Source: Actinobacteria bacterium HGW-Actinobacteria-1 (GTDB lineage Bacteria > Actinomycetota > Coriobacteriia > Anaerosomatales > Anaerosomataceae). Taken from it: 39,473 nucleotides of DNA. Under the pieces are notes generated by a model. It made no database searches, had not been told where the DNA came from, and worked only from the letters and a program-made list of their open reading frames with translations. Every line of letters begins with the position of its first letter. Within the stretch, counting starts at the first letter, position 1. Shown here piece after piece: positions 22,037 to 39,162 of this stretch. Both the position numbers and the translations under genes were made by a program. The stretch is from positions 1 through 39,473 of the forward strand of contig PHFB01000016.1 of NCBI GenBank assembly GCA_002841355.1, read 5' to 3'.

Positions 22037-24397
<2,361 letters not shown>

Positions 24398-27903: not shown

Positions 27904-28341
27904 TCAGACCTCGCTCGTGCACGCCGGGCACTTCGTCGCGGCAAGCGCGATCTCGCTCTTGCAGTACGGGCACTCCTTGGTGTTCGGCTCGGGCGCGGGT
28001 TCTCTGCGAAGGCGGTTCATGGCCTTCACGATCAAGAACAGCACGAATGCGACGATCACGAACGTCACGACAGCGTTCACGAACGCGCCGTAGTTGAGCG
28101 TAACGGCGCCGGCCTTGGTGGCCGCCTCAAGCGTGGCGTACGGTCCCGCGGGCAAACCCTCCCGCAGCACAAAGAAGCGGTTCACGAAGTCCACGCTGCC
28201 GAGCAGCGCGCCCACGAGCGGCATCATGATGTCTTTCACCAGCGAGTTCACAATCGCTGTGAACGCAGCGCCGATAACGAGGCCAACCGCGAGATCCATC
28301 GCGTTGCCCTTGATCGCGAACTCCTTGAACTCCTTGAACAT
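27904..28341 (-). CDS. mscL: Large-conductance mechanosensitive channel with C-terminal zinc ribbon
   Basis: A 145-residue channel that opens on hypo-osmotic shock. MscL features: amphipathic N-terminus M-F-K-E-F-K-E-F-A-I-K-G-N, TM1 with the pore sequence D-L-A-V-G-L-V-I-G-A-A-F and I-V-N-S-L-V-K-D, and TM2 (about 86-107). The usual charged C-terminal bundle is replaced by a zinc ribbon with C124, C127, C138 and C141. The start was set at Met 28341, where homology begins. The preceding gene ends 16 nt upstream on the same strand. Confidence 0.94.
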   Translation of the reverse strand: MFKEFKEFAIKGNAMDLAVGLVIGAAFTAIVNSLVKDIMMPLVGALLGSVDFVNRFFVLREGLPAGPYATLEAATKAGAVTLNYGAFVNAVVTFVIVAFVLFLIVKAMNRLRREPAPEPNTKECPYCKSEIALAATKCPACTSEV

Positions 28342-28357
28342 CTGGGTTCCCTTCGAC

Positions 28358-28978
28358 TTAGCCGACAGAGATGACGCCCCCATCGGGATTGACCTCAAGT
28401 CGGAGCACCGAGGCGCCATCTTTGAGGTACTCGAACCGGTAGCCCATGATCTTCACCGTGAACGTCTTGCCGGGGAACGCGGTCTTCATGACGGCCTCAG
28501 CGGCAGACGCGGCGGCCTTCTCGGCATCGCTTGCGGGATCCGCAAGAGCCGCACCGGAGTTGAGCGAGGCGTCCTGCTTCATGATGTTGCTCGCGTCGGC
28601 GGGAGCAGCGACGTTGTAGAGCGGGTGCGCAACGCCATCGGCATGCACCTCGAACAGTACCGCTGTGTTGTCGGTGACCGCCGAGACGAGGTACGCCGTG
28701 AACGTCGGGTCGATGCCGGCAATGTCCGGCTCCGGCTGCCCAACGCGCATCTCGAGTCCGGCCTTGAGCGCCTCGGGGACCGCTGCAACAGCGGCCTTCT
28801 CGTTCGCGCCGTCTGTGGCAATCGCCGTGTACTCCTCGGGAACGTCGGCGCTCGATGCGGCATCGCTGACACCATGCTTCGATTCGCCCGGCGCCGTGCT
28901 GCTCGACGAACCTCCGCAACCAGCAAGCGCCAGACACGCGACCAGTCCTACCGTGACCACCCATGCCGAGCGACGCAT
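28358..28978 (-). CDS. Hypothetical lipoprotein
   Basis: A 206-residue exported protein with lipobox L-A-G-C near residue 21, followed by a Gly/Ser-rich linker. A mixed domain follows with T-A-Y-L-V-S-A-V-T-D-N-T-A-V-L-F-E-V strands and an Ala/Glu-rich helix. ATG 28978 has GGGGAGG upstream. It may be co-transcribed with mscL. No domain is recognised. Confidence 0.75.
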   Translation of the reverse strand: MRRSAWVVTVGLVACLALAGCGGSSSSTAPGESKHGVSDAASSADVPEEYTAIATDGANEKAAVAAVPEALKAGLEMRVGQPEPDIAGIDPTFTAYLVSAVTDNTAVLFEVHADGVAHPLYNVAAPADASNIMKQDASLNSGAALADPASDAEKAAASAAEAVMKTAFPGKTFTVKIMGYRFEYLKDGASVLRLEVNPDGGVISVG

Positions 28979-29016
28979 TGCGACCTCCCCGTATGCCGCG
29001 GCCCCCATCGGGCCTC

Positions 29017-29037
29017 CTCGGCTCAGTCTATGCCGAG
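29017..29037 (-). terminator. Weak hairpin after the long minus-strand operon
   Basis: CTCGGC and GCCGAG form a 6-bp stem with a 9-nt loop, 27 nt past the stop of the last reductase gene. No T-tract follows, so readthrough into the lipoprotein gene is possible. Confidence 0.3.
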
Positions 29038-29063
29038 AAGCGCCCGTCGGTCACGCGAAACGC

Positions 29064-30218
29064 TCAGCACATCCCCTCGACGAACGCCTCGATGCGCGTA
29101 CGCAGCTGGCCCTCGTCGGCGCTGGAGTAGTCGGTCTCGATCTTCATGAACGGCAGGCTCAGCTCTTCTCGGCAGGCACGCTGCACGATGACGGACTCCA
29201 CGTTGAACGTGTGGCACGCCTGCCAGACGGTATCGATGACGCCCTCGACGCCGTACACCGCCACGCTTGAGCGCAGCAGCTCCACTCGGCCATCGTTGGG
29301 GCTCATGCACGCACACGGGATGTCGAGCGTGAAGCGCGTGAGCGCGGCGAACGGGTCGCCGTCCTCGTCCACCAAGCGGTCGAACATCTTCGTGCCGCTG
29401 CATGCGTCGTGCGCCACCACGAGCGCGCCGGAGTCCTCGGCAAGGCGCATGACCTTGTTCGTCTCGGGAGACATCGGTGAGCCGGTGATGAGCAGTCGCG
29501 GCAATGGACTCTGCGCCGCGTCGGCAGCAGCCGCATCGGCCAGCTCGACCGCCTCGGCCAGCTCCTCGATGAGCGCGAGGTACGGCGCGCGGTCCACCAC
29601 GAAGTCGGTGAGCGAGCGTACCGAGAGCATCTGCGTCCACGTGAGCGAGGGCACGCGGCGCTCGAAGGTGCGCACGATCCGCTGCAGCACGCGGCGGATG
29701 TCATTCTCGTAGCGGATCTCGGCCGCCAGACGCTCGGGCGTGGGCTCGATGCCGGTGATCTCGGTGAGGAACGCCGCGACCCGCGCCATCTCCTCGGCCC
29801 ATCTCTCGAGCGCGCCGGGGACGTTCTTGTCGTACGGAATCTGCATGACGTGCACCGGCCTGAGCTTGCCGAGCAGCTCGAAGACCTTCTTCTTGCCGTC
29901 GCACGTGGTCTCGCCGATAAGCGCGTCGGCGAAGTGGAAGTACGGGCACGTGTCGGTGATGGCCAGGCCGTAGCTCGACTTGATGAGCGGGCAGAAGTTC
30001 CTTGGCAGCTCGACTTCGGCGCTCGGAATCGCGTTCGCGTCATTGCCGCAGAGCGAGACCGGGATCGCGCCAGCGGCACGCACCAGCTCGAACGGGATGT
30101 AGCCGCAGTAGAGACCTACGACCTTGAGACCCGAGTCCTTCGCTTCTTTGAACCTGACCTGTGCCCACTCCAGGCGGTCTGCGACCTCCGCAAGAATGGC
30201 ATCTATGCTTCTCGCCAC
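29064..30218 (-). CDS. Double-cubane-cluster reductase (2-hydroxyacyl-CoA dehydratase D family), copy 1
   Basis: A 384-residue iron-sulfur protein. Conserved cysteines are L-Y-C-G-Y, N-F-C-P-L-I-K-S-S-Y-G, D-T-C-P-Y-F, G-E-T-T-C-D-G-K-K-K, H-D-A-C-S-G-T-K and I-P-C-A-C-M. Family members that work with an ATPase activase carry a double-cubane [8Fe-9S] cluster and do low-potential reductions; the substrate is unknown. The start is GTG 30218, with GAGGGGGAG upstream, one base after the TAG of saoL. That tight junction supports readthrough of the saoL TGA. It is the last gene of the operon and a paralogue of the first (37828-39108). Confidence 0.88.
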   Translation of the reverse strand: MARSIDAILAEVADRLEWAQVRFKEAKDSGLKVVGLYCGYIPFELVRAAGAIPVSLCGNDANAIPSAEVELPRNFCPLIKSSYGLAITDTCPYFHFADALIGETTCDGKKKVFELLGKLRPVHVMQIPYDKNVPGALERWAEEMARVAAFLTEITGIEPTPERLAAEIRYENDIRRVLQRIVRTFERRVPSLTWTQMLSVRSLTDFVVDRAPYLALIEELAEAVELADAAAADAAQSPLPRLLITGSPMSPETNKVMRLAEDSGALVVAHDACSGTKMFDRLVDEDGDPFAALTRFTLDIPCACMSPNDGRVELLRSSVAVYGVEGVIDTVWQACHTFNVESVIVQRACREELSLPFMKIETDYSSADEGQLRTRIEAFVEGMC

Positions 30219-30219
30219 G

Positions 30220-30885
30220 CTACTCCCCCTCATCCAGACCGAAGACCCATTCCGCCACGATTCGTGCCTCGGGAACGCTCAGAAGGAAGAGTCCTTCCTC
30301 GGAACGTCCTTGTGCGACAAGCCACTCGTCATAGTGCTTCTTCGTACAGAAGAAGTTCATGTCGTTTCAACAGCTGCTGGCCCAGTTCTCCTCGGCCGTG
30401 AGATCGGCGTGCACCGCGTGGAGCGAACGCGGCTCGGCAAGCGCGACCTCGCCGCCGCTCATCTCCACGCGCACGGGCGCGCCGCACATCGTGCACTTGG
30501 ACTCGAGCGTAATGTCCTGCCCGAACGTGTACGTGGTGCCCATGCCGTCGATCGCGCACATGGAGCTGAACGTCCGCCCGTCCGCAAGCGTTACGCGATG
30601 CGCCGTCGGCATGCCCGAGACGGGATACGCGTACGTGACCGCGCCGTCGTCCATCACGATGACGTGCTTCTCGGCCATGGAGCGCGCGAGCGCTTCCGCG
30701 GTCACGGCGTCCATGCCGATACGCGCCCCCGCGTCAGCTGGCCGAGCCGGCCCGCCCTGCGCAAGCATCTCGTCGAGGATCGCAAGCCGCAGCGGCTTCT
30801 CCTCGGCTGTGGCGCGCGAATGCACGCTTCGCGTGTGGAGGCGCTCTGCCGGATACCGTTCGAATTCGAAATCGCCGTGCTTCAC
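30220..30885 (-). CDS. saoL: MerB-like organometallic lyase with in-frame TGA (putative selenoprotein SaoL)
   Basis: An organomercurial-lyase-type protein of 221 residues if the TGA at 30369-30367 is read as selenocysteine (U173). The core matches MerB: C110-A-I-D113 corresponds to the C96/D99 pair, C-T-M-C (131-134) is a metal-binding-like pair, and C172-U173 sits where MerB has its second catalytic Cys159 and neighbour. Beyond the TGA, N-D-M-N-F-F-C-T-K-K-H-Y-D-E-W is the normal family C-terminus, 48 residues to TAG at 30220. Stopping at TGA would remove the end of the catalytic fold. A SECIS-like hairpin lies at 30337-30355. GTG 30885 overlaps the saoA stop (GTGA). Inferred to cleave carbon-metal bonds; the metal is unknown. 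Confidence 0.85.
30337..30355 (-). promoter_or_regulatory. Bacterial SECIS-like hairpin for saoL
   Basis: CTTCTTC and GAAGAAG make a perfect 7-bp stem with loop TGTAC. The loop begins 18 nt after the TGA and has G in its second position, within the usual bacterial SECIS limits (loop about 16-37 nt away, G among the first two loop bases). Confidence 0.75.
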
Positions 30886-31736
30886 TGACCCATCATCCCC
30901 ACTTCGATCTCCTCCACCGAAAGCGGCGGCAACTCCGCTTGTGCGGCGCCCATCTCCAGCCGTTCAAGCGCCTCCAGGCCGGCGCCCCCCATCGCGTCAC
31001 GGAGCGCGTCCGTGAGCACGTCTTTGTAGTGGTGATAGCGCTCGGACTTGCGCTGTCGCGGCCTTGGCAGGTCGATCTTGAGGTCGCGTACGATACGCCC
31101 GCCACCAAGCCCCATCACAAGCACCCTGTCCGAGAGGAACACGGCCTCTTCCACGTCGTGCGTGACCATCAGCACCGTCACCCGTTCGCGCATGAAGATC
31201 GCCTCAAGCTCGCCCTGCAGCAGCATGCGCATCTGGTAGTCGAGCGCGCCAAGCGGCTCGTCCATCAGCAGCACCTCGGGGCTGCACGCAAGCGCGCGCA
31301 CGAGCGCCGTGCGCTGCTTCATGCCACCCGAAAGCTGATGCGGGTAGAGGTGCTCCTTGCCCGAGAGGTGCGCGAGCGCGAGCAGCTCGGCAAGCCGCCG
31401 CTCCTGATCCTCGGCAGACATCGCCACCTGCCGCATCGGGAAGAGCACGTTGTCGCGCACGTTCATCCACGGGAAGAGCGCGTAGCTCTGGAAGACGAAC
31501 CCGCGATCCGGGCCCGGTCCATCGGTGACGTTTCCGCTGAGAAGCACCACGCCCTCATCGGCGTGCTGGAAGCCCGCCACAATCGTGAGCAGCGTCGTCT
31601 TGCCGCACCCCGACGGGCCGAGCAGCGTCACGAACTCGCCCTCGGCGATGCGCATGCCGACGTCGTCGAGCACCCGGTGGACGGTGTCCCCGGCGCCGAA
31701 CTGCTTCGACACGCCCTTGATCTCGAGCTTGCTCAC
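30882..31736 (-). CDS. saoA: ABC transporter ATP-binding protein (SaoA)
   Basis: A 284-residue ATPase of the nitrate/sulfonate/taurine (SsuB/TauB-like) type. Walker A is G-P-S-G-C-G-K-T, Q-loop F-V-F-Q-S-Y-A-L-F-P-W-M, signature L-S-G-G-M-K-Q-R, Walker B V-L-L-M-D-E-P and H-switch T-H-D-V. An extended C-terminal tail (about 235-284) is specific to this protein. Start GTG 31736 overlaps the permease stop (GTGA) with GGAGG upstream, so an apparent longer open frame further upstream is really the permease gene's other frame. It powers import through SaoP. Confidence 0.9.
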   Translation of the reverse strand: MSKLEIKGVSKQFGAGDTVHRVLDDVGMRIAEGEFVTLLGPSGCGKTTLLTIVAGFQHADEGVVLLSGNVTDGPGPDRGFVFQSYALFPWMNVRDNVLFPMRQVAMSAEDQERRLAELLALAHLSGKEHLYPHQLSGGMKQRTALVRALACSPEVLLMDEPLGALDYQMRMLLQGELEAIFMRERVTVLMVTHDVEEAVFLSDRVLVMGLGGGRIVRDLKIDLPRPRQRKSERYHHYKDVLTDALRDAMGGAGLEALERLEMGAAQAELPPLSVEEIEVGMMGQ

Positions 31737-32569
31737 GACGCGAACCTCCACGGTGCCAGCTTGCGGTTGAGCAGCATGAGTAAGCGATCGATCGAAAAGC
31801 CGATCATTGCGGCCATGATGATGAGCGCGACCAGGCGGTCGGTCTCCATCATCGTCTGTGCGGTTACCATCGAGTACCCGAAACCTGCACTCGTCGCTAT
31901 GAACTCTGCTCAAATAACGGACATCCAGCCGGCGCTCATCGCAAGCCGCGCGCCGGTCAGGATGTCAGGTCCTGCAGCGGGTATGACGACGTTCTTGATG
32001 ATGCTTCCTTTGCTCGCGCCCATGCTGCGCGCGGCGTGGAAGAAGTCGGGCGAGATGTTGTCCACGCCCGCGATCGTGCTGAGCAGGATCGGGAAGACGC
32101 CCACCATCGTGATGAGGAAGAGCGTGGGCCCGTCCCCGAGACCGAACCACACGATCGTGAGCGGCACCCATGCCATGATCGGCACCTGCCGCACCGAGTC
32201 GACGATCGGCGAGACCACGCGCCGCACCTTCTTCGACGCGCCCATCGCCATGCCAAGCGGCACGCCGATGATGAGTGCGTACGCGAAGCCGGTGAGCACT
32301 CGCCCGAGCGTGATCCCAAGGTTGATGAGTGTCTCGGGATCCACAAGCGCGGCGGCAAGCGCTTTGAGCGTCGCAGCCGGGTACGGCAGGATGATCTCGG
32401 CATCGTAATGAGCGGCGGCGAGCTGCCACACGATGAGGATCACCCCCACCGAGAGTATCCACTGCTGACGGCTCACCCAGCCGAGAAACCCGCCATTGGC
32501 CTGTTTCCCCCGTGCCTGCGGTGGGGTCACCCCTGCGGAGCGACGAACCGCACCCCTGCTTGCTTCCAC
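31733..32569 (-). CDS. saoP: ABC transporter permease with in-frame TGA (putative selenoprotein SaoP)
   Basis: A BPD_transp_1 permease of 278 residues if TGA 31912-31910 is read as Sec (codon 220). Spans start near residue 38. The EAA-like coupling loop is A-A-R-S-M-G-A-S-K-G-S-I-I-K-N-V-V-I-P near 186-204. The TGA falls in G-W-M-S-V-I-U-A-E-F-I, where taurine/nitrate-type permeases continue as 'A-E'. Downstream residues (T-S-A-G-F-G-Y, two more spans, L-A-P-W-R) complete the family C-terminus. Without readthrough the final spans are lost. A SECIS-like hairpin lies at 31871-31893. GTG 32569 has GAGGAGGTG upstream; GTG 32530 is an alternative. Sec in a membrane permease is rare and suggests direct metal contact. 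Confidence 0.8.
31871..31893 (-). promoter_or_regulatory. Bacterial SECIS-like hairpin for saoP
   Basis: CGAGTGC pairs with GTACTCG (one G-U wobble) around the 9-nt loop AGGTTTCGG. The loop starts 24 nt after the TGA and has G in position 2. Confidence 0.65.
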
Positions 32570-33318
32570 GCCTTCACCTCCTCGGTCGAGAGCGGGACGC
32601 CTGTTCGCGCCTCAACCGCTGCCTTCAAGTGCTCGACGTCGTTCAGGTCATCTGCCGTCCGAGAGACCATCGCAAGGAACTCCGCGTACGCGGGGTCCGC
32701 CATCAGCTCTCTCGTGACCACTAGCTCATAGGTCGTGATGTCGCCGTTCGCCTCGGCGATGCTCGTCTTCGGGCGGTCGATCGCGCGGGCGTCGAGCACG
32801 TCCATCACGGCCGCGTCCACCTCGGCACGCTCGAGCGCGTACGCGATGGCGCTTGAGAGCATCGGGCGCAACATCGCGCCCTCGCCGAATGCCGCGCGCG
32901 CCGCGTCCTCCTGGTACGCCCGCCGCTGCGAGAGCGCTACTGACGTCACGGCGCCGCCCCGGCTGACGATCACGTCCGAGTTGTACACGAGCGGCCCGAC
33001 CACCACGTAGCGATCGTCTCGGGCCACAAGCCTTGCAGCCGCATCCGGACACATGATCGCCGCGTCGAGCAGGTCGACCGAGAGCGCGTACTCCGTCTTC
33101 GTGGCGCAGCAGTCTTTGAGCGGGTATGCCTCGATCGCACGTCCGCGCACGGTGCTCGTGCGCGCTAGCTCGACGGCTACGAGGCCGCCGGTGTCGGAGG
33201 GCGCACCAACGTTGATGGCGTGGGCGTCGGCCACCTCGGCCCTCCGGGGCAGCAGCGTCGAGCCCGCTACGATCGCGACAGCGACGACAAGCACTATGAC
33301 CAGGAACCGCTTATCCAT
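32527..33318 (-). CDS. Periplasmic binding-protein-like factor with Cys-Cys motif
   Basis: A 263-residue protein anchored by an N-terminal span (about 5-24) without a lipobox. Segments such as V-V-G-P-L-V-Y-N-S-D-V-I-V-S and Y-E-L-V-V-T-R-E-L-M-A-D-P-A-Y resemble the SsuA/TauA-like substrate-binding fold. L-K-D-C-C-A-T-K (C70, C71) and A-I-M-C-P-D-A-A offer thiols for a soft metal. It lies between saoB and saoP and probably works with the same transporter. I know of no named family for it. Its stop is overlapped by the saoP start region. Confidence 0.7.
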   Translation of the reverse strand: MDKRFLVIVLVVAVAIVAGSTLLPRRAEVADAHAINVGAPSDTGGLVAVELARTSTVRGRAIEAYPLKDCCATKTEYALSVDLLDAAIMCPDAAARLVARDDRYVVVGPLVYNSDVIVSRGGAVTSVALSQRRAYQEDAARAAFGEGAMLRPMLSSAIAYALERAEVDAAVMDVLDARAIDRPKTSIAEANGDITTYELVVTRELMADPAYAEFLAMVSRTADDLNDVEHLKAAVEARTGVPLSTEEVKAWKQAGVRFVAPQG

Positions 33319-33326
33319 GAAGCTTG

Positions 33327-33356
33327 GGCAGGACGCCGCCGAAACGACGTCCTGCC
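33327..33356 (-). other. Intercistronic hairpin between saoB and the next gene
   Basis: GGCAGGACG and CGTCCTGCC form a 9-bp stem with a 12-nt loop, just 9 nt before the downstream ATG. It could stabilise the saoB message or partly attenuate transcription, which would fit a binding protein needed in excess. Confidence 0.5.
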
Positions 33357-33380
33357 ACCACCCTCCCCACCTGCTGTGAT

Positions 33381-34514
33381 CTAGAGTTCGAGCCCTGCGT
33401 CAGGGTCGATCGAGAGTGCCTTGGTCTTGAAGTCCTCGAAGGACATCGTCAGCGGGAACGCGCCGTCGATCTTCTCGGAAATGAACGTGTCGAAGTTCGC
33501 GGTACCGGCCGCATCGAGGATGTCGGTCTTCACGAACTCGTCGACCTTGGGCTCGAAGGTCATCGTGCCGACCTTGCGGGCGTAGTCGACCTCGTTCTGG
33601 TAGAGCTGCTTGTCGGTCGCCCACGTGAGCGTGCGGCCGTCCTTCACGCACTTGTGCCAGATGGTCATGAGTGCGACTTCGTCCTTCACACCGTACGCCT
33701 TCGCGAAGATCTTCGCGGCGGCCGCCGGGTGCTCGTAGACGTACTGGATGGCGAGCGAGTGAGCCAGGACCATCTTCTTGGCCAGCTCGGGGTGCTCCTC
33801 GGCAAACGTCTCATTCATCGCGTACGAGCAGCACATACCGGACTCGCCGGTCTCCGGGATGCTCGTGTCATCGCCGACGATCCAGCCGATGCCATCGACA
33901 ACGGCCGCCGAACCCCACGGGTCACACGTCACATAGCCGTCGATCTGACCGGCCTTGAGCGCCACGAACTGGTCCTTGATCTGCATCGCGTACGGCTTGT
34001 AATCCGCCGAGTTGGGCGAGATGCCCGTGTTGGTGGCCATGCGCACCCAGTACGCATCCGTCTTCTCGATGTCGGGCGAGAGACCAAGTTCCTTGCCCTT
34101 CAGGTCCTCTTTCGTCTTGATGTCGTTCGACGCCACCAGGTAGTACGAGCCGCCGGTGTGGTTGGACGCGGCCACGAAGATCGGCGAACCCTTCTCGCGC
34201 GCCTTGATGAGACCCTCAGTGCCGATGTAGCCGACGTCCATCTTGCCGGCGGCCATGGCCTCGGGCACCGAACCGTTGCCGGTGAGCTCGACCTTGAGGC
34301 CGAGATCATCGAAGATGCCGGCGTCACGAGCGACGACGGAAGCCAGCATGTGGTCACAGTTGTAGTAGCCGAGCTTGACGGTGTAATCGTCGACAACCGG
34401 CTCCGTTGCATCCGACGTCGTGTCCGACGTCTTTGCCGTGCTGCAGCCCGCCAGCCCTCCGGCCAGCAGCGCTACCGCAAGCAGCAGCAGCCCGAACTTG
34501 CGCATTCCCCGCAT
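33381..34514 (-). CDS. saoB: ABC transporter substrate-binding lipoprotein (SaoB)
   Basis: A 377-residue solute-binding protein with lipobox L-A-G-C24. The fold is NitT/TauT-like: V-K-L-G-Y-Y-N-C-D-H-M (C53, D54, H55), V-P-E-A-M-A-A-G-K-M-D-V-G-Y-I-G and G-Y-V-T-C-D-P-W-G-S. A Cys-Cys pair (G-M-C-C-S-Y) also faces the likely cleft. Cysteine and histidine at the ligand site are unusual for this family and fit a soft-metal compound. In relatives one of these positions may be Sec; here they are Cys. ATG 34514 follows GGGGAGGG. Inferred to deliver substrate to SaoP/SaoA. Confidence 0.82.
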   Translation of the reverse strand: MRGMRKFGLLLLAVALLAGGLAGCSTAKTSDTTSDATEPVVDDYTVKLGYYNCDHMLASVVARDAGIFDDLGLKVELTGNGSVPEAMAAGKMDVGYIGTEGLIKAREKGSPIFVAASNHTGGSYYLVASNDIKTKEDLKGKELGLSPDIEKTDAYWVRMATNTGISPNSADYKPYAMQIKDQFVALKAGQIDGYVTCDPWGSAAVVDGIGWIVGDDTSIPETGESGMCCSYAMNETFAEEHPELAKKMVLAHSLAIQYVYEHPAAAAKIFAKAYGVKDEVALMTIWHKCVKDGRTLTWATDKQLYQNEVDYARKVGTMTFEPKVDEFVKTDILDAAGTANFDTFISEKIDGAFPLTMSFEDFKTKALSIDPDAGLEL

Positions 34515-34559
34515 AAGTACCCTCCCCGATCGTTGTCTTCCATCCAAATGGCCAAGCGG

Positions 34560-35063
34560 CTATCCAAGCCGCGATGTCCCCAAGTGCGCGCTCGTCTGCC
34601 AGAGCGCACCGCTGTCACAGCAGCGGTCCATGTTGTCGCCGAACAGGTCCGTGAGCGTGGTGCCTTCCACGCGGTAGATGGCGAATCCGATGTCGGAACC
34701 CTTCGAACCGCGGACGATGAACTCCACGGGCCCCTTCTTGTCGATGTCGCGAAACGAGATTCGCTGGTCCTCGGCAGGAGCGGGAACCGCATTCGTCTCG
34801 GCAGGCGTGTCGCCCCCGATGACCACGAGCGTGCGCATCGAGCCGTCCGCATCGCGGAAGACGACCACCATGTCCTCGACGCCGTCATCGGTGACGTCAC
34901 CCACCGCCGAGGTCACGATCGTGCACTCCGGGTGCTTCTCGGCGAAGAACGCTCCCAGCTTTGCCGAGGCAGGCTTCGCGGCAGGAGCCGACGCCTGCGC
35001 CGATGCGCAACCGGTAAGCAGCAGCCCGCACGCGGCAATCGCGAGAGCGAATCGAGGTCTCAT
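34560..35063 (-). CDS. saoC: Cys-Cys lipoprotein (SaoC-like)
   Basis: A 167-residue protein with a lipobox L-T-G-C19 and a compact domain (V-G-D-V-T-D-D-G-V-E-D-M-V-V-V, S-F-R-D-I-D-K-K-G). It carries a C-C pair (148-149) in F-G-D-N-M-D-R-C-C. The related family, as I recall it, ends in Cys-Cys-COOH; here 18 residues follow before the stop, an oddity that may be natural or a small indel. ATG 35063 overlaps the saoE stop (ATGA). Probably a surface thiol protein handling the metal. The family call is moderate. Confidence 0.68.
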   Translation of the reverse strand: MRPRFALAIAACGLLLTGCASAQASAPAAKPASAKLGAFFAEKHPECTIVTSAVGDVTDDGVEDMVVVFRDADGSMRTLVVIGGDTPAETNAVPAPAEDQRISFRDIDKKGPVEFIVRGSKGSDIGFAIYRVEGTTLTDLFGDNMDRCCDSGALWQTSAHLGTSRLG

Positions 35064-36145
35064 GCCGCCACCTCTCCGGCACGCTTCGCGAAGAGCGCCG
35101 CGAGCTTACCCCGGTAGGATGCGATGGCCAGCAGGACGATGACGGCGGCACTCGCCCACTGCAGCCATGGCGGCACCGAGGCGATCAGCCAGTTGGCGAC
35201 GGCCTTGGTGCTCGCACCCTTCGACGGGTCGACCAGCAGCCCGGTCTCACCCGCAAGGAGCAGGTTGGCTATGTAGCCGACGCCGATGCCTGCAACCACC
35301 AGCGTTGATGCGAAGATGATCGCGGCGCGCTTGCCGATGAGCCGGTTCATGGAGATGAGCTCTGGCAGATTCGTGGCTGCGCCCGCCATGAGAAACGTGA
35401 TGGCGATGCCGGGACTTGCGCCCGCCGCCACCAGCGCCGCCACGAATGGGATGTGCCCCACGGCGCACACGTACATGGCCGCCGCGAGCACAGCCACGCT
35501 ACCGAGCGACAGCATCCCGGGATCGCCCAGCACGCGGTCGATGAACGAGGTCGGCACAAGCGCGAAGACCACGCCCGCGAACAGCGCACCGATGACGACG
35601 TACTTGCTCACGATGAGGCCAAGGTCGGTGAACCCGTAGTGGAGTCCGGACTTGATTCGCTCGGCAGCACTGAGTCGCTCGTGCTGCTCGGGCACTGATG
35701 CGGCGACCGCATCCGGGCGATAGAGCTCGGGACCGGCGAAGCGGTTCCCGATTACGCCGAGGATCATCGGGATGACGAATCCCGCGATGAGGTAGATGGT
35801 GGCGATCTTCGGGCCGAGAAGCCCGTACGCCAGCAGCACCGCCGCCGGGTTGATGATCGGCGTGGCAGCCATGAACGCGAGCACCGGGCCCAAGTACGCG
35901 CCCGAGTAGTACAGCCCGAGGCCAAGCGGTACGACGCCGCAGCTGCAGATCGGCAGTAGCATGCCCGAGACCGTCGCCTTCGCAAGCGACGAAAGCTTCG
36001 TGTTGCCAAGCGCGCCCTGAAGCCGCTCGGGGCGCACGTACTCGTGCATCAGCCCGGCCAGCACGAAGCTCACGACGAGCCATGGCGCAGCGCCGAGCAA
36101 CACACCGAATGCGGCAGTCACGGTATCGGAGAGGATCGTCAGCAC
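35060..36145 (-). CDS. saoE: CSCG-motif permease, putative metal(loid) efflux transporter (SaoE)
   Basis: A 361-residue membrane protein of the DUF318/ArsP_1 permease family with about ten spans. The diagnostic pore motif C-S-C-G-V-V-P-L (C67, C69) is present, as is the second-half repeat A-V-G-H-I-P-F-V-A-A-L. ArsP relatives export organoarsenicals and related compounds, so this transporter probably removes the product or unused organometal. Start GTG 36145 overlaps saoT by 7 nt. Confidence 0.85.
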   Translation of the reverse strand: MLTILSDTVTAAFGVLLGAAPWLVVSFVLAGLMHEYVRPERLQGALGNTKLSSLAKATVSGMLLPICSCGVVPLGLGLYYSGAYLGPVLAFMAATPIINPAAVLLAYGLLGPKIATIYLIAGFVIPMILGVIGNRFAGPELYRPDAVAASVPEQHERLSAAERIKSGLHYGFTDLGLIVSKYVVIGALFAGVVFALVPTSFIDRVLGDPGMLSLGSVAVLAAAMYVCAVGHIPFVAALVAAGASPGIAITFLMAGAATNLPELISMNRLIGKRAAIIFASTLVVAGIGVGYIANLLLAGETGLLVDPSKGASTKAVANWLIASVPPWLQWASAAVIVLLAIASYRGKLAALFAKRAGEVAA

Positions 36146-36405
36146 GCGCTCTGCCCGTTTACGGCATCGGCGATCGCCCGCTCGATGATTGAGCGGTTGA
36201 GCCGTTCGATCCGTGGACCCCCGTTGATGATCAGTGTCCCCCGCATGATCGGCCCGTACTTGGCGACATACCCCATGTCCCGCCCCGCCTGGTAGATCAG
36301 AACCTCCACGTTACCCCCGTACCTCCCCGCAACCTCACGCACCGTCCGTGCGTGTTCATCACACCCTGGTCAGGTGTTCACGAATTCGACCAGCACCCTA
36401 GCCAT
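36139..36405 (-). CDS. saoT: Thioredoxin-like selenoprotein with U-P-G-C active site (SaoT)
   Basis: An 88-residue thioredoxin-fold protein whose redox site reads U12-P-G-C15 through an in-frame TGA at 36372-36370 (V-E-F-V-N-T-U-P-G-C). The rest is an ordinary compact Trx core: V-E-V-L-I-Y-Q-A-G-R-D, cis-Pro-like loop K-Y-G-P-I-M-R-G-T-L-I-I-N-G and a final helix. Treating TGA as a stop would leave an 11-residue peptide plus a headless fragment. ATG 36405 overlaps the previous stop (TATGGCTAG). A SECIS-like hairpin follows at 36336-36354. Likely a selenol donor or reductant for SaoL. Confidence 0.88.
36336..36354 (-). promoter_or_regulatory. Bacterial SECIS-like hairpin for saoT
   Basis: CACGCAC and GTGCGTG make a perfect 7-bp stem with loop GGACG. 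The loop begins 22 nt after the TGA, with G in its first two positions. Confidence 0.78.
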
Positions 36406-37072
36406 ATGGTCCCGCCTCGTCCTTGGCGGCCGCCCGTGACGCATCGGTGTCGATTCGCACCGCGAATGCCTCGCCGCGCTTTGTGGTCGACGCGATCAGC
36501 GAACGCATCTCGGCGAGACGCGCGACGTGCTCGGCTTCCAACTCGGTCGCCACCAGCACCTCAAGCGGCGCGCCCTTGCCGTTGAGCGCCCGCTTCACCT
36601 GATGCACCGCGTCAGGCACCGGTAGCCCTCGAAGCGGCTCGATGTGCTGCCCACGCGTATCGAGCACGCCGCCCGCCCACGTAAGCGGGACGTCTCGGTA
36701 CTCGGCCATGAGCGCTGCTTCCGCGCGCTTGTAGTCGGCCGCCGTGAGGTTCCCCCGGCCGAAGAGCGTGCAGTGGCACCAGCCGACCGAGTCGATCTCG
36801 GCCTGCGCGAACGAGCACGGACAGATGAGGCTCCTGTCGAGCTCCGCGTTGCCGCTCGGCTCGAAGCACGGGCAGAAGCGGTGCCCGTACATCGCCTCGC
36901 AGTCCGAGAGCCACAGGCGCAGGTTCGTGTAGACCATCCATCGCGGATTGACCGACCAGCCCTTGTTCTTGGCGTGGCGTCGAATCCAGGCATCTTGCTT
37001 GGTGAGCGTGGACCGATACGCGACGAAATCGCGGAAGAAGCCCTTCATCATCGGCCACATGTTGTTGCTCAT
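36398..37072 (-). CDS. Ferredoxin:thioredoxin reductase-like protein with TusA-like C-terminal domain
   Basis: A 224-residue protein. The central motif set C67-P-C69, C84-P-C86 and C99-H-C101 is that of the ferredoxin:thioredoxin reductase catalytic subunit, where it holds a [4Fe-4S] cluster beside a redox disulfide. The C-terminal part (about 130-205) has a TusA-like pattern, L-R-G-L-P-V-P-D-A-V-H-Q-V-K-R-A-L, but the usual sulfur-carrying Cys is Val. It overlaps the activase stop (ATGA, start 37072) and the saoT start. Inferred to reduce SaoT with ferredoxin electrons. Confidence 0.85.
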   Translation of the reverse strand: MSNNMWPMMKGFFRDFVAYRSTLTKQDAWIRRHAKNKGWSVNPRWMVYTNLRLWLSDCEAMYGHRFCPCFEPSGNAELDRSLICPCSFAQAEIDSVGWCHCTLFGRGNLTAADYKRAEAALMAEYRDVPLTWAGGVLDTRGQHIEPLRGLPVPDAVHQVKRALNGKGAPLEVLVATELEAEHVARLAEMRSLIASTTKRGEAFAVRIDTDASRAAAKDEAGPYG

Positions 37073-37824
37073 TGGTGCGCCGCCGCCCCAAGACTCAATG
37101 CCGCGCCGAGAGCACCCACGGTCTGCGCCTCCTCGGGAACCAGCACGTCGCCCTCGAATCCTTCGGAGATCAGAGCGACCATCGCGGGGTTCTTCGCGAC
37201 GCCACCCGCGAACACGAGCGGCCCGCGTGCGTTCACGCGCTTGAGCGAGGAGAGCGTGCGCTTCGCGATCGACTCGTGCAGGCCGCGAGCGATGCGCGCG
37301 CGGTCCTCGCCGCGGTGCACGAGACCGGTCACCTCGCTTTCGGCGAAGACGGTGCACATCGAGGAGATGCTCACGCCGGTGGACGCCGCGATGCCCTGCT
37401 CGGCCATCTCTTCAAGCGAGAAGCCGAGGGCGCGCGCCATGACCTCGAGGAACTTGCCGGTCCCCGCCGCGCACTTGTCGTTCATCTCGAAGTCCGTGAC
37501 TTTGCCGCCCGGGCCAAGCGAGATGACCTTCGTGTCCTGCCCGCCGATGTCGAGCACCGAGAATGCATGCGGGAACAGCCGAGCAGCCCCCACGCCGTAC
37601 GCGGTGATCTCCGTGACGGCCGTCCCGCCAAACCGCTCGCGTGCGCCGTGGCGGCCGTAGCCGGTCGAGACGATCGCATCGTGCGCATTGCGCTCCACGA
37701 AGACGGCCGCGGCCGACCCGGGATCGAATCCCGAGTCGGCCACTGCCCAATCTACGATCCGCCCGTCCTCAAGCCAGACAGCGTCAACGCTTCGTGAGCC
37801 GATATCCAGGCCGAGTACGCGCAT
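37069..37824 (-). CDS. 2-hydroxyacyl-CoA dehydratase/reductase ATP-dependent activase
   Basis: A 251-residue ASKHA-fold activase (BadF/HgdC type). Phosphate motifs: L-G-L-D-I-G-S-R-S at the N-terminus and L-D-I-G-G-Q-D-T-K at 91-99. C118 (N-D-K-C-A-A-G-T-G) and C157 (S-S-M-C-T-V-F-A-E-S-E) provide the single [4Fe-4S] cluster shared across the dimer. ATP hydrolysis drives electrons to very low potential on the partner reductase. It lies 3 nt after the double-cubane reductase gene and could also serve the second copy at 29064-30218. Confidence 0.94.
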   Translation of the reverse strand: MRVLGLDIGSRSVDAVWLEDGRIVDWAVADSGFDPGSAAAVFVERNAHDAIVSTGYGRHGARERFGGTAVTEITAYGVGAARLFPHAFSVLDIGGQDTKVISLGPGGKVTDFEMNDKCAAGTGKFLEVMARALGFSLEEMAEQGIAASTGVSISSMCTVFAESEVTGLVHRGEDRARIARGLHESIAKRTLSSLKRVNARGPLVFAGGVAKNPAMVALISEGFEGDVLVPEEAQTVGALGAALSLGAAAHQ

Positions 37825-37827
37825 CGC

Positions 37828-39108
37828 TTACAGCATCTCCAGGAACGCTTCGATGCGGGTCGCGAGCTGGCCCACGTCCTCCATCGAGTAGTCGGTCGTG
37901 ATCTTGAGCACCGGGAAGCCGGCGTCGCGCACGGTCTTCTCCACCGCGTTCGCTTCCATCTCGTAGAGGCCGCAGAACTGCAGCGAGTAGTCGATGACGC
38001 CATCGGCGCCAAGCTCCTTCGCCATGCGCACGACGTCCTCAAGGCGGCCCTGGTTGGGCGTGAAGCACGCGCAGTTGATGTCGAGGTACTTCTCGGCGAT
38101 ATCGCTGACCATCTCGTCGAGCGTGCTGGCGTCCTCGGACACGAGGTCCTGGTAGTAGCGGCTGCCGGTGCACATCTCTTCGCCGACAACGACCGCGCCG
38201 GCCTTTTCGATGATGTCGTGGAGCTTCCAGTTGGGGAGCGCCATCGGCGTGCCGGTGATAAGGATGCGCTTGGCACCCTTGGGCGCGACGCCTTCGCCCG
38301 CGGCCACGCGCGCCTCGAGTTCGTCGGCAAGCGCGTTCATCATCTGCGTGAAGCGGGGTACGTCGTCGTAGAAGGCGACCTGCGTTGCGAGCAGCGCGTC
38401 CTTGCCGCTGATCGGCGCGGGGTCGGCGGCACGCGTCGCGGCGATGCGCTGCAGCGCGCGGCGCTTGTCGTTGACTTCCTTGATGGAGGCCTTCAGCGAC
38501 TCGGCGGTGATGGTATTGCCGGTGACTTCTTCGACTTTGGCCATGAGGTCACGGATCTCGTCGCGCCACATCGCCATGTCGACGTCGCGCTTCATCTGCG
38601 GAAGCTCCATGACGTATACGTTGTGCATGTCGCCGAGCAACTCGTACGCCTTCTTCTTGCCGTCGCACGTGGTCTCGCCGATGACGAGGTCAGCCGACTC
38701 GATGTACGGGCACACCTTGGCAAGCTTGAAGCCCATGAAGCTCTTGATGAGCGAGCACGTGTTGCGCGGCATGATCTGCTCGACCTGGTCGTAGGCGAAT
38801 TCCGCGCCGGCGCACAGACCCACGCACCAACCGGCCGCCGCGCGGATGATTTCCTCGGGCACATAGAGGCAGAAGGTGCCGAACACCTTGCCGCCCGACT
38901 TGCGATAGTCGTCGAGCTCCTTGATGCGAAGGCCGTGCACTTCGCTCATCACGAAGTTGAGGTAATCCATGCCCTGCGGCCGGTTCTCCTGCGTGAGGTA
39001 CGCATCACCGAACAGCTGCCCCACCGCGCCGAGCAGTGCGTCGTGTGTGGGGAGATCGAGGCCCAGTTCGGCCCACATCGGATGATAGTCGACAGGCTGA
39101 TCGCTCAT
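37828..39108 (-). CDS. Double-cubane-cluster reductase (2-hydroxyacyl-CoA dehydratase D family), copy 2
   Basis: A 426-residue paralogue of the protein at 29064-30218, with a longer N-terminus (about 70 residues). Cysteine motifs: T-F-C-L-Y-V-P, N-T-C-S-L-I-K-S-F-M-G-F, K-V-C-P-Y-I, G-E-T-T-C-D-G-K-K-K, E-E-M-C-T-G-S-R-Y and I-N-C-A-C-F. The gene starts the operon and is followed by the activase. ATG 39108 has TTGGAGTC upstream. Substrate unknown; a role in reductive chemistry linked to the organometal system is an inference from linkage. Confidence 0.9.
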   Translation of the reverse strand: MSDQPVDYHPMWAELGLDLPTHDALLGAVGQLFGDAYLTQENRPQGMDYLNFVMSEVHGLRIKELDDYRKSGGKVFGTFCLYVPEEIIRAAAGWCVGLCAGAEFAYDQVEQIMPRNTCSLIKSFMGFKLAKVCPYIESADLVIGETTCDGKKKAYELLGDMHNVYVMELPQMKRDVDMAMWRDEIRDLMAKVEEVTGNTITAESLKASIKEVNDKRRALQRIAATRAADPAPISGKDALLATQVAFYDDVPRFTQMMNALADELEARVAAGEGVAPKGAKRILITGTPMALPNWKLHDIIEKAGAVVVGEEMCTGSRYYQDLVSEDASTLDEMVSDIAEKYLDINCACFTPNQGRLEDVVRMAKELGADGVIDYSLQFCGLYEMEANAVEKTVRDAGFPVLKITTDYSMEDVGQLATRIEAFLEML

Positions 39109-39162
39109 CTGAGACTCCAATCGCAGTTGCCCGTGCGTATCTTATAGCACGATTGCATATTG

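Follow-up and report, generated by a model that had tools for sequence, protein, structure and literature searches.

Our analysis of a 39,473-nt stretch of Actinobacteria bacterium HGW-Actinobacteria-1 (contig PHFB01000016.1, assembly GCA_002841355.1; hereafter the window) indicates that it carries a clear example of the selenocysteine-assisted organometal (SAO) system in an actinobacterial lineage, and that double-cubane-cluster ATP-dependent reductases, whose genes flank the system here, are recurrently linked to Sao genes in other genomes. Eight consecutive genes on the minus strand (30220-36405) each scored above the cut-off of their own NCBIfam equivalog model (Table 1), and therefore represent the already published SAO system and not a system of a new kind. 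The system is reportedly that of Haft and Gwadz (2023), going by the papers that cite them. We consider it probable that the family assignment, the recoding of three in-frame TGA codons and a reading in which organometal compounds are imported, cleaved and their metal exported hold jointly. That a double-cubane reductase genuinely works as an arm of the system, joining a selenoprotein importer-lyase to a nitrogenase-like low-potential reductase, is advanced here tentatively, as a proposal with nearly even prospects.

An original prediction, made by a model from the sequence alone, had called this a Sao-like operon, and the curated family models show that the name was essentially right. The gene roles it proposed hold as well: its pair of binding proteins corresponds to SaoX and SaoB, its CSCG exporter to SaoE and its lipoprotein to SaoC. 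Scanning genome contigs for SaoX yielded 79 related Sao loci, most of which share the gene order of the window. Cys67 and Cys69 of SaoE and the Cys-Cys motif of SaoC were invariant in 74 loci, and four Cys residues of SaoX were kept in all 77-79 loci aligned. SaoB had no Pfam match, and its structural model matched periplasmic binding proteins in fold. SaoC continues for 18 residues past its Cys-Cys motif (34560-34613), compared with two extra residues in loci L003 and L106 and none in L034; the Cys-Cys-COOH end that gives the family its name is absent from the window and is not demanded by the SaoC model. Because SaoC passes that model, the tail leaves the operon within the SAO family. Sao genes were also figured in a 2023 preprint (PMC10418091).

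Each of the three recoded genes contains a single in-frame TGA (U), namely in SaoT (UPGC), SaoP (...SVIUAEF...) and SaoL (SSCUNDMNFFC), and read-through gives full-length proteins with end-to-end family matches, so that the predicted restoration of family C-termini is borne out. At these positions the homologues had TGA or Cys and nothing else (70/70 for SaoT, 74/74 for SaoP and 43/43 for SaoL; Table 1), with Cys found at all three, as the prediction had proposed to check. A similar exchange was found at Cys71 of SaoB, a Cys codon in the window, where 75 relatives had 23 TGA and 52 Cys. Such exclusive exchange at three sites excludes chance or unrelated stops as its cause. Moreover, a 9.2-kb stretch on another contig of the window genome (2.44 Mb in 28 contigs, 98% complete) contains selD, selA, selB and a tRNA-Sec (anticodon TCA), so that all four of the sel genes suggested for a search (selA, selB, selC and selD) are present. 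Neither of the two outcomes that the prediction had named as refuting it was seen. On the strength of the comparative codons and this machinery, and not of hairpin folding, we conclude that the three TGA codons specify selenocysteine (Sec), as had been predicted. The alternative, that they are normal stops or errors of sequencing in defunct genes, would fit the fact that a bacterial selenocysteine insertion sequence (SECIS) is not reliably recognisable here; yet homologues from many phyla show TGA or Cys and nothing else at the sites in all three genes, read-through gives full-length family matches and the Sec machinery is complete. This alternative is therefore extremely improbable, and the codon comparison by itself already refutes it.

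The hairpins that the prediction had described as fitting SECIS are present at roughly the distances it gave, with loops ~22, 23 and 18 nt downstream of the TGA, but they are no better than those found elsewhere: 56 Cys codons of the same genes yielded equally strong or stronger SECIS-like hairpins, and the folding advantage of TGA-bearing over Cys-bearing orthologues was marginal (p=0.02 for SaoT, not significant for SaoP). The hairpins are thus compatible with SECIS and not diagnostic, constituting weak evidence, and SECIS as an independent proof of recoding was rejected. Separately, selD of the window genome (G000 contig C8 24312-25226, locus L096) itself contains an in-frame TGA.

The MerB-like lyase of the prediction is SaoL, as supported by its family model, its fold and its catalytic residues. 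The AlphaFold model of SaoL (pLDDT 91) matches MerB structures with Z scores of 20-21 over ~200 residues, and alignment with PDB 3f2g, 1s6l and 5c17 places C110, D113, C131, C172 and Sec173 of SaoL at C96, D99, C117, C159 and C160 of MerB. Equivalents of the catalytic Cys96, Asp99 and Cys159 are therefore present, and none of the five columns varies among 24 SaoL sequences when Sec is counted as Cys. SaoL falls below the cut-offs of the NCBIfam MerB equivalogs (63.4/193 and 53.4/200 bits), which makes it a relative of MerB and not MerB. No mercuric reductase (MerA) was found above cut-off in the window genome, and this would fit export of the freed metal rather than reduction of Hg(II).

Both reductases of the window, DCR1 and DCR2 (494 and 432 bits), exceed the equivalog cut-off of the double-cubane reductase family NF040772 (350 bits). 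The gene for an activase adjoins DCR1, whereas DCR2 has no adjoining activase of its own. Among 199 genomes of the class to which the host belongs, SaoP was found in five, DCR1 in 72 and DCR2, counted at E <1e-100, in six. DCR2 occurs in all five Sao carriers and in only one of the 194 other genomes (Fisher 2e-9, without correction for shared ancestry). The DCR1-activase pair lies directly upstream of SaoT in the five carriers, with a ferredoxin-thioredoxin reductase (FTR)-like gene in between in two of them. That the pair is common in Sao-less relatives points to a role of its own; these two genes are residents of the lineage that occur mostly in genomes lacking Sao, and at the local level DCR2 alone follows Sao. 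The two reductases as a single Sao-specific frame were accordingly rejected (DCR1-activase in 72/199 and Sao in 5/199 class genomes). The prediction had seen the operon as enclosed by double-cubane enzymes: reductases, activase and FTR are indeed there and DCR2 follows Sao, but they do not make up one device, as DCR1-activase is resident. The FTR gene belongs with DCR1-activase, since it follows that pair in the Sao-less genome G037 and on contig C91 of G093. Using tblastn, it was found in none of the 79 Sao loci as fetched, and FTR as a Sao component is not supported. In a longer stretch of G093 (L104), an FTR gene lies ~0.5 kb past a DCR2-like gene; as a candidate selenoprotein it was rejected, its TGA being the terminal stop.

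The association extends well beyond this class. Each of 31 Sao-bearing genomes, which come from several phyla and have long flanks around Sao, encodes at least one reductase above the family cut-off, compared with 53 of the 149 in a control sample drawn from one phylum (Fisher 1.5e-12). A reductase gene lay within 5 kb of Sao in 14/31, where 0.32 would be expected (P 1.6e-20, genomes treated as independent), and in L016, L024 and L060 it was located between Sao genes. In a tree of 99 reductases, the Sao-linked ones require 23 label changes, at least 20 of which are forced by well-supported branches, while they are more clustered than in shuffles. A single Sao-specialised reductase subfamily was rejected given these 23 changes. 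The spread of linked reductases across many clades implies that the linkage arose, moved or survived reductase swaps several times; of all the evidence, this repeated independent association speaks most strongly for a functional tie between Sao and the reductase. That the reductase matters to Sao is thus supported more widely than the prediction had claimed.

However, it could be argued that the eight Sao genes suffice as an organometal importer, lyase and exporter, and that the reductases are simply found in the same selenium-rich anaerobic genomes and the same neighbourhoods. Several points weigh in this direction, and against a reductase arm. The control for co-occurrence comes from one phylum and the Sao genomes from several; no reductase lies within 5 kb of 17 of the 31 loci, all fully flanked, and the cluster therefore need not include one; and DCR1-activase, found mostly without Sao, is present in 67 of the 194 Sao-less class genomes, hence has a role of its own. 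Furthermore, the reductase family and its activase are tied to selenium genes in general: they were listed beside selenium genes in Slackia (Lin et al. 2015, PMC5322559), and dicubane proteins were mentioned as selenium-linked in a preprint on mlp clusters (PMC10418091). What appears to be new is therefore the recurrent linkage of Sao and reductase, the general link between reductase and selenium being known already. Against mere co-residence stand the excess of adjacency, the insertion of reductases between Sao genes at some loci, the near-restriction of DCR2 to Sao carriers and the several independent linkages, and we regard this explanation as a serious but rather doubtful one. The link between Sao and the reductase was not found stated in the literature covered, which did not take in Haft & Gwadz 2023, Haft & Tolstoy 2025 and Jeoung & Dobbek 2018; that the number NF040772 lies near the Sao accessions hints that it was possibly noticed earlier.

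We propose the following working of the system. SaoX and SaoB would capture a soft-metal organic compound through their conserved Cys pairs, and SaoP, with its membrane-embedded Sec, would import it together with SaoA. SaoL, which carries the Cys/Asp/Cys set of MerB plus Sec at the Cys160 position, would then protonolyse the carbon-metal bond, and the freed metal might be handed over thiol-selenol pairs of Cys and Sec to SaoE and thereby to the outside, with SaoC acting externally. SaoT, a seleno-thioredoxin, would hold the Cys/Sec pairs reduced. The double-cubane reductase and its ATP-driven activase, here joined by the FTR-like protein upstream of SaoT, may supply electrons of very low potential, either for the reductive cleavage of substrates beyond the reach of SaoL or for freeing selenols blocked by metal or oxidant. 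Metal, substrate and activity of the Sao proteins, like the direction of flow and the route of the electrons, are what we infer, which tempers this scheme, as do the 18 residues of SaoC after its family-naming Cys-Cys and a SECIS structure that is indistinguishable from background folding. It is also conceivable that organoselenium or organometal compounds are imported as a nutritional source of selenium or metal and not detoxified, and that the reductase breaks their C-Se or C-metal bond. The importer is indeed an ABC transporter of the sulfonate/taurine type, and Sao and dicubane proteins occur in type I mlp clusters proposed for methyl-selenide metabolism (PMC10418091); but a dedicated exporter, SaoE, and a MerB-like lyase that keeps the mercury-binding residues suit toxic soft metals better, and we hold such salvage to be unlikely.

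We know of no physiological substrate for double-cubane enzymes. If the reductase is an arm of SAO, this would be their first physiological context and would define an anaerobic pathway of reductive organometal degradation. The link thus offers a concrete hypothesis for the double-cubane family, and for anaerobes that degrade methylmercury-like compounds without MerA.

The history of the locus can be read in part from a relative of the same genus, the Sao-less G071. It aligns with window DNA at 27908-29056 and 37084-39109, with 0.4 kb in between as opposed to 8.0 kb in the window; FTR, Sao and DCR2 thus form one block that is present or absent as a discrete unit and sits directly behind the activase. 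Since this relative lacks exactly the 8-kb block, Sao function is testable by presence and absence. At the Sao-less site (L149 10118-10516), ~0.4 kb of other sequence separates the activase from downstream lipoprotein and MscL genes. In the DCR1-activase region of G071 (L149 10516-12540), the activase is 94% identical to that of the window and DCR1 only 76%, with the DCR1 of G055 at 94%; these identities suggest recombination within the DCR1-activase pair. In a concatenated SaoE/X/P/A tree, actinobacterial Sao loci form one clade (SH support 1.0). The common site and the single clade together suggest that the block either was acquired once long ago and then lost many times, or was transferred as a whole. 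The Sao loci of two genomes placed in different families (L103 and L104) are nearly identical, and in both a second activase and two divergent HGD-D subunits come next; either a transfer took place very recently or the two bins share a contaminant.

Measured gaps confirm the predicted arrangement of twelve tightly packed genes, all on the minus strand (39108-29064), in which neighbours overlap briefly or are separated by at most 62 nt. The intervals (nt, overlaps negative) are 3 for DCR1/activase, -4 for activase/FTR, ~-7 for FTR/SaoT and SaoT/SaoE, -4 for SaoE/SaoC, +45 for SaoC/SaoX, +62 for SaoX/SaoB, -4 for SaoB/SaoP, SaoP/SaoA and SaoA/SaoL, and -14 for SaoL/DCR2. No riboswitch or other Rfam RNA scored above threshold near the operon; the promoter scan gave zero matches, and terminator matches were fewer than in shuffles. 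Elsewhere in the window, a 786-aa open reading frame (22037-24397, minus strand) encodes glucose-6-phosphate dehydrogenase fused to phosphogluconate dehydrogenase, and one of equal length occupies the syntenic place in the same-genus locus L145.

Table 1. Genes and predicted selenocysteine codons of the Sao locus, with supporting matches
Feature	Position	Strand	Support	Cut-off (bits)
DCR1, double-cubane-cluster ATP-dependent reductase	37828..39108	-	NF040772 494 bits; PDB 6eno/7yyl E 1e-144	350
Activase (BadF/BcrA ATPase) of double-cubane reductase	37069..37824	-	TIGR00241 212 bits, PF01869	
FTR, ferredoxin-thioredoxin reductase catalytic-chain-like, extra C-terminal domain	36398..37072	-	PF02943; PDB 7pwe	
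SaoT, thioredoxin-like selenoprotein, motif UPGC	36139..36405	-	NF040730 116.6 bits	65
Sec codon of SaoT	36370..36372	-	Aligned codons 17 TGA / 53 Cys	
SaoE, efflux transporter, CSCG motif	35060..36145	-	NF040736 462 bits	325
SaoC, lipoprotein with CC motif	34560..35063	-	NF040734 139.7 bits	80
SaoX, substrate-binding lipoprotein	33381..34514	-	NF040735 465 bits	300
SaoB, membrane-anchored substrate-binding protein	32527..33318	-	NF040727 224 bits	140
SaoP, ABC permease selenoprotein	31733..32530	-	NF040733 380.6 bits	295
Sec codon of SaoP (membrane helix after EAA loop)	31910..31912	-	Aligned codons 44 TGA / 30 Cys	
SaoA, ABC ATPase	30882..31736	-	NF040729 394 bits	360
SaoL, MerB-like organometallic lyase, selenoprotein	30220..30885	-	NF040728 152 bits; AlphaFold model matches MerB	140
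Sec codon of SaoL (MerB Cys160 position, beside catalytic Cys159)	30367..30369	-	Aligned codons 40 TGA / 3 Cys	
DCR2, second double-cubane reductase, Sao-linked	29064..30233	-	NF040772 431.8 bits	350

Among known systems, the closest is SAO as covered by NCBIfam NF040727-NF040736, for example in Clostridioides difficile, with the same eight genes, the same Sec/Cys positions and a compact single-strand order; in the C. difficile loci L038, L039, L041 and L072 the order SaoT-E-C-X-B-P-A-L is identical to that of the window. The window differs in its actinobacterial host, in its combination of three Sec (SaoT, SaoP and SaoL) with Cys in SaoB, SaoC and SaoX, in the DCR1-activase-FTR genes that precede the operon and the DCR2 that comes after it, and in the 18-residue tail of SaoC. 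MerB (R831b; MerB2) shares with SaoL the fold (Z 21) and the equivalents of Cys96, Asp99, Cys117 and Cys159, whereas identity by structure alignment is ~20%, SaoL has Sec at the Cys160 position, and SaoL sits in a selenium operon and MerB in a mer operon. The FTR of the window has the CPC/CPC/CHC core in common with the FtrB family double-selenoprotein (NF041072) and with the FTR catalytic chain, but compared with NF041072 it is all Cys, reaches only 42.9/160 bits, carries an extra C-terminal domain and goes with DCR1-activase. DCR1 aligns over its full length with the protein of PDB 6eno, reportedly the double-cubane cluster protein of Jeoung and Dobbek (2018), and likewise has an activase next to it; what sets the reductase genes of the window apart from that protein is their genomic linkage to Sao.

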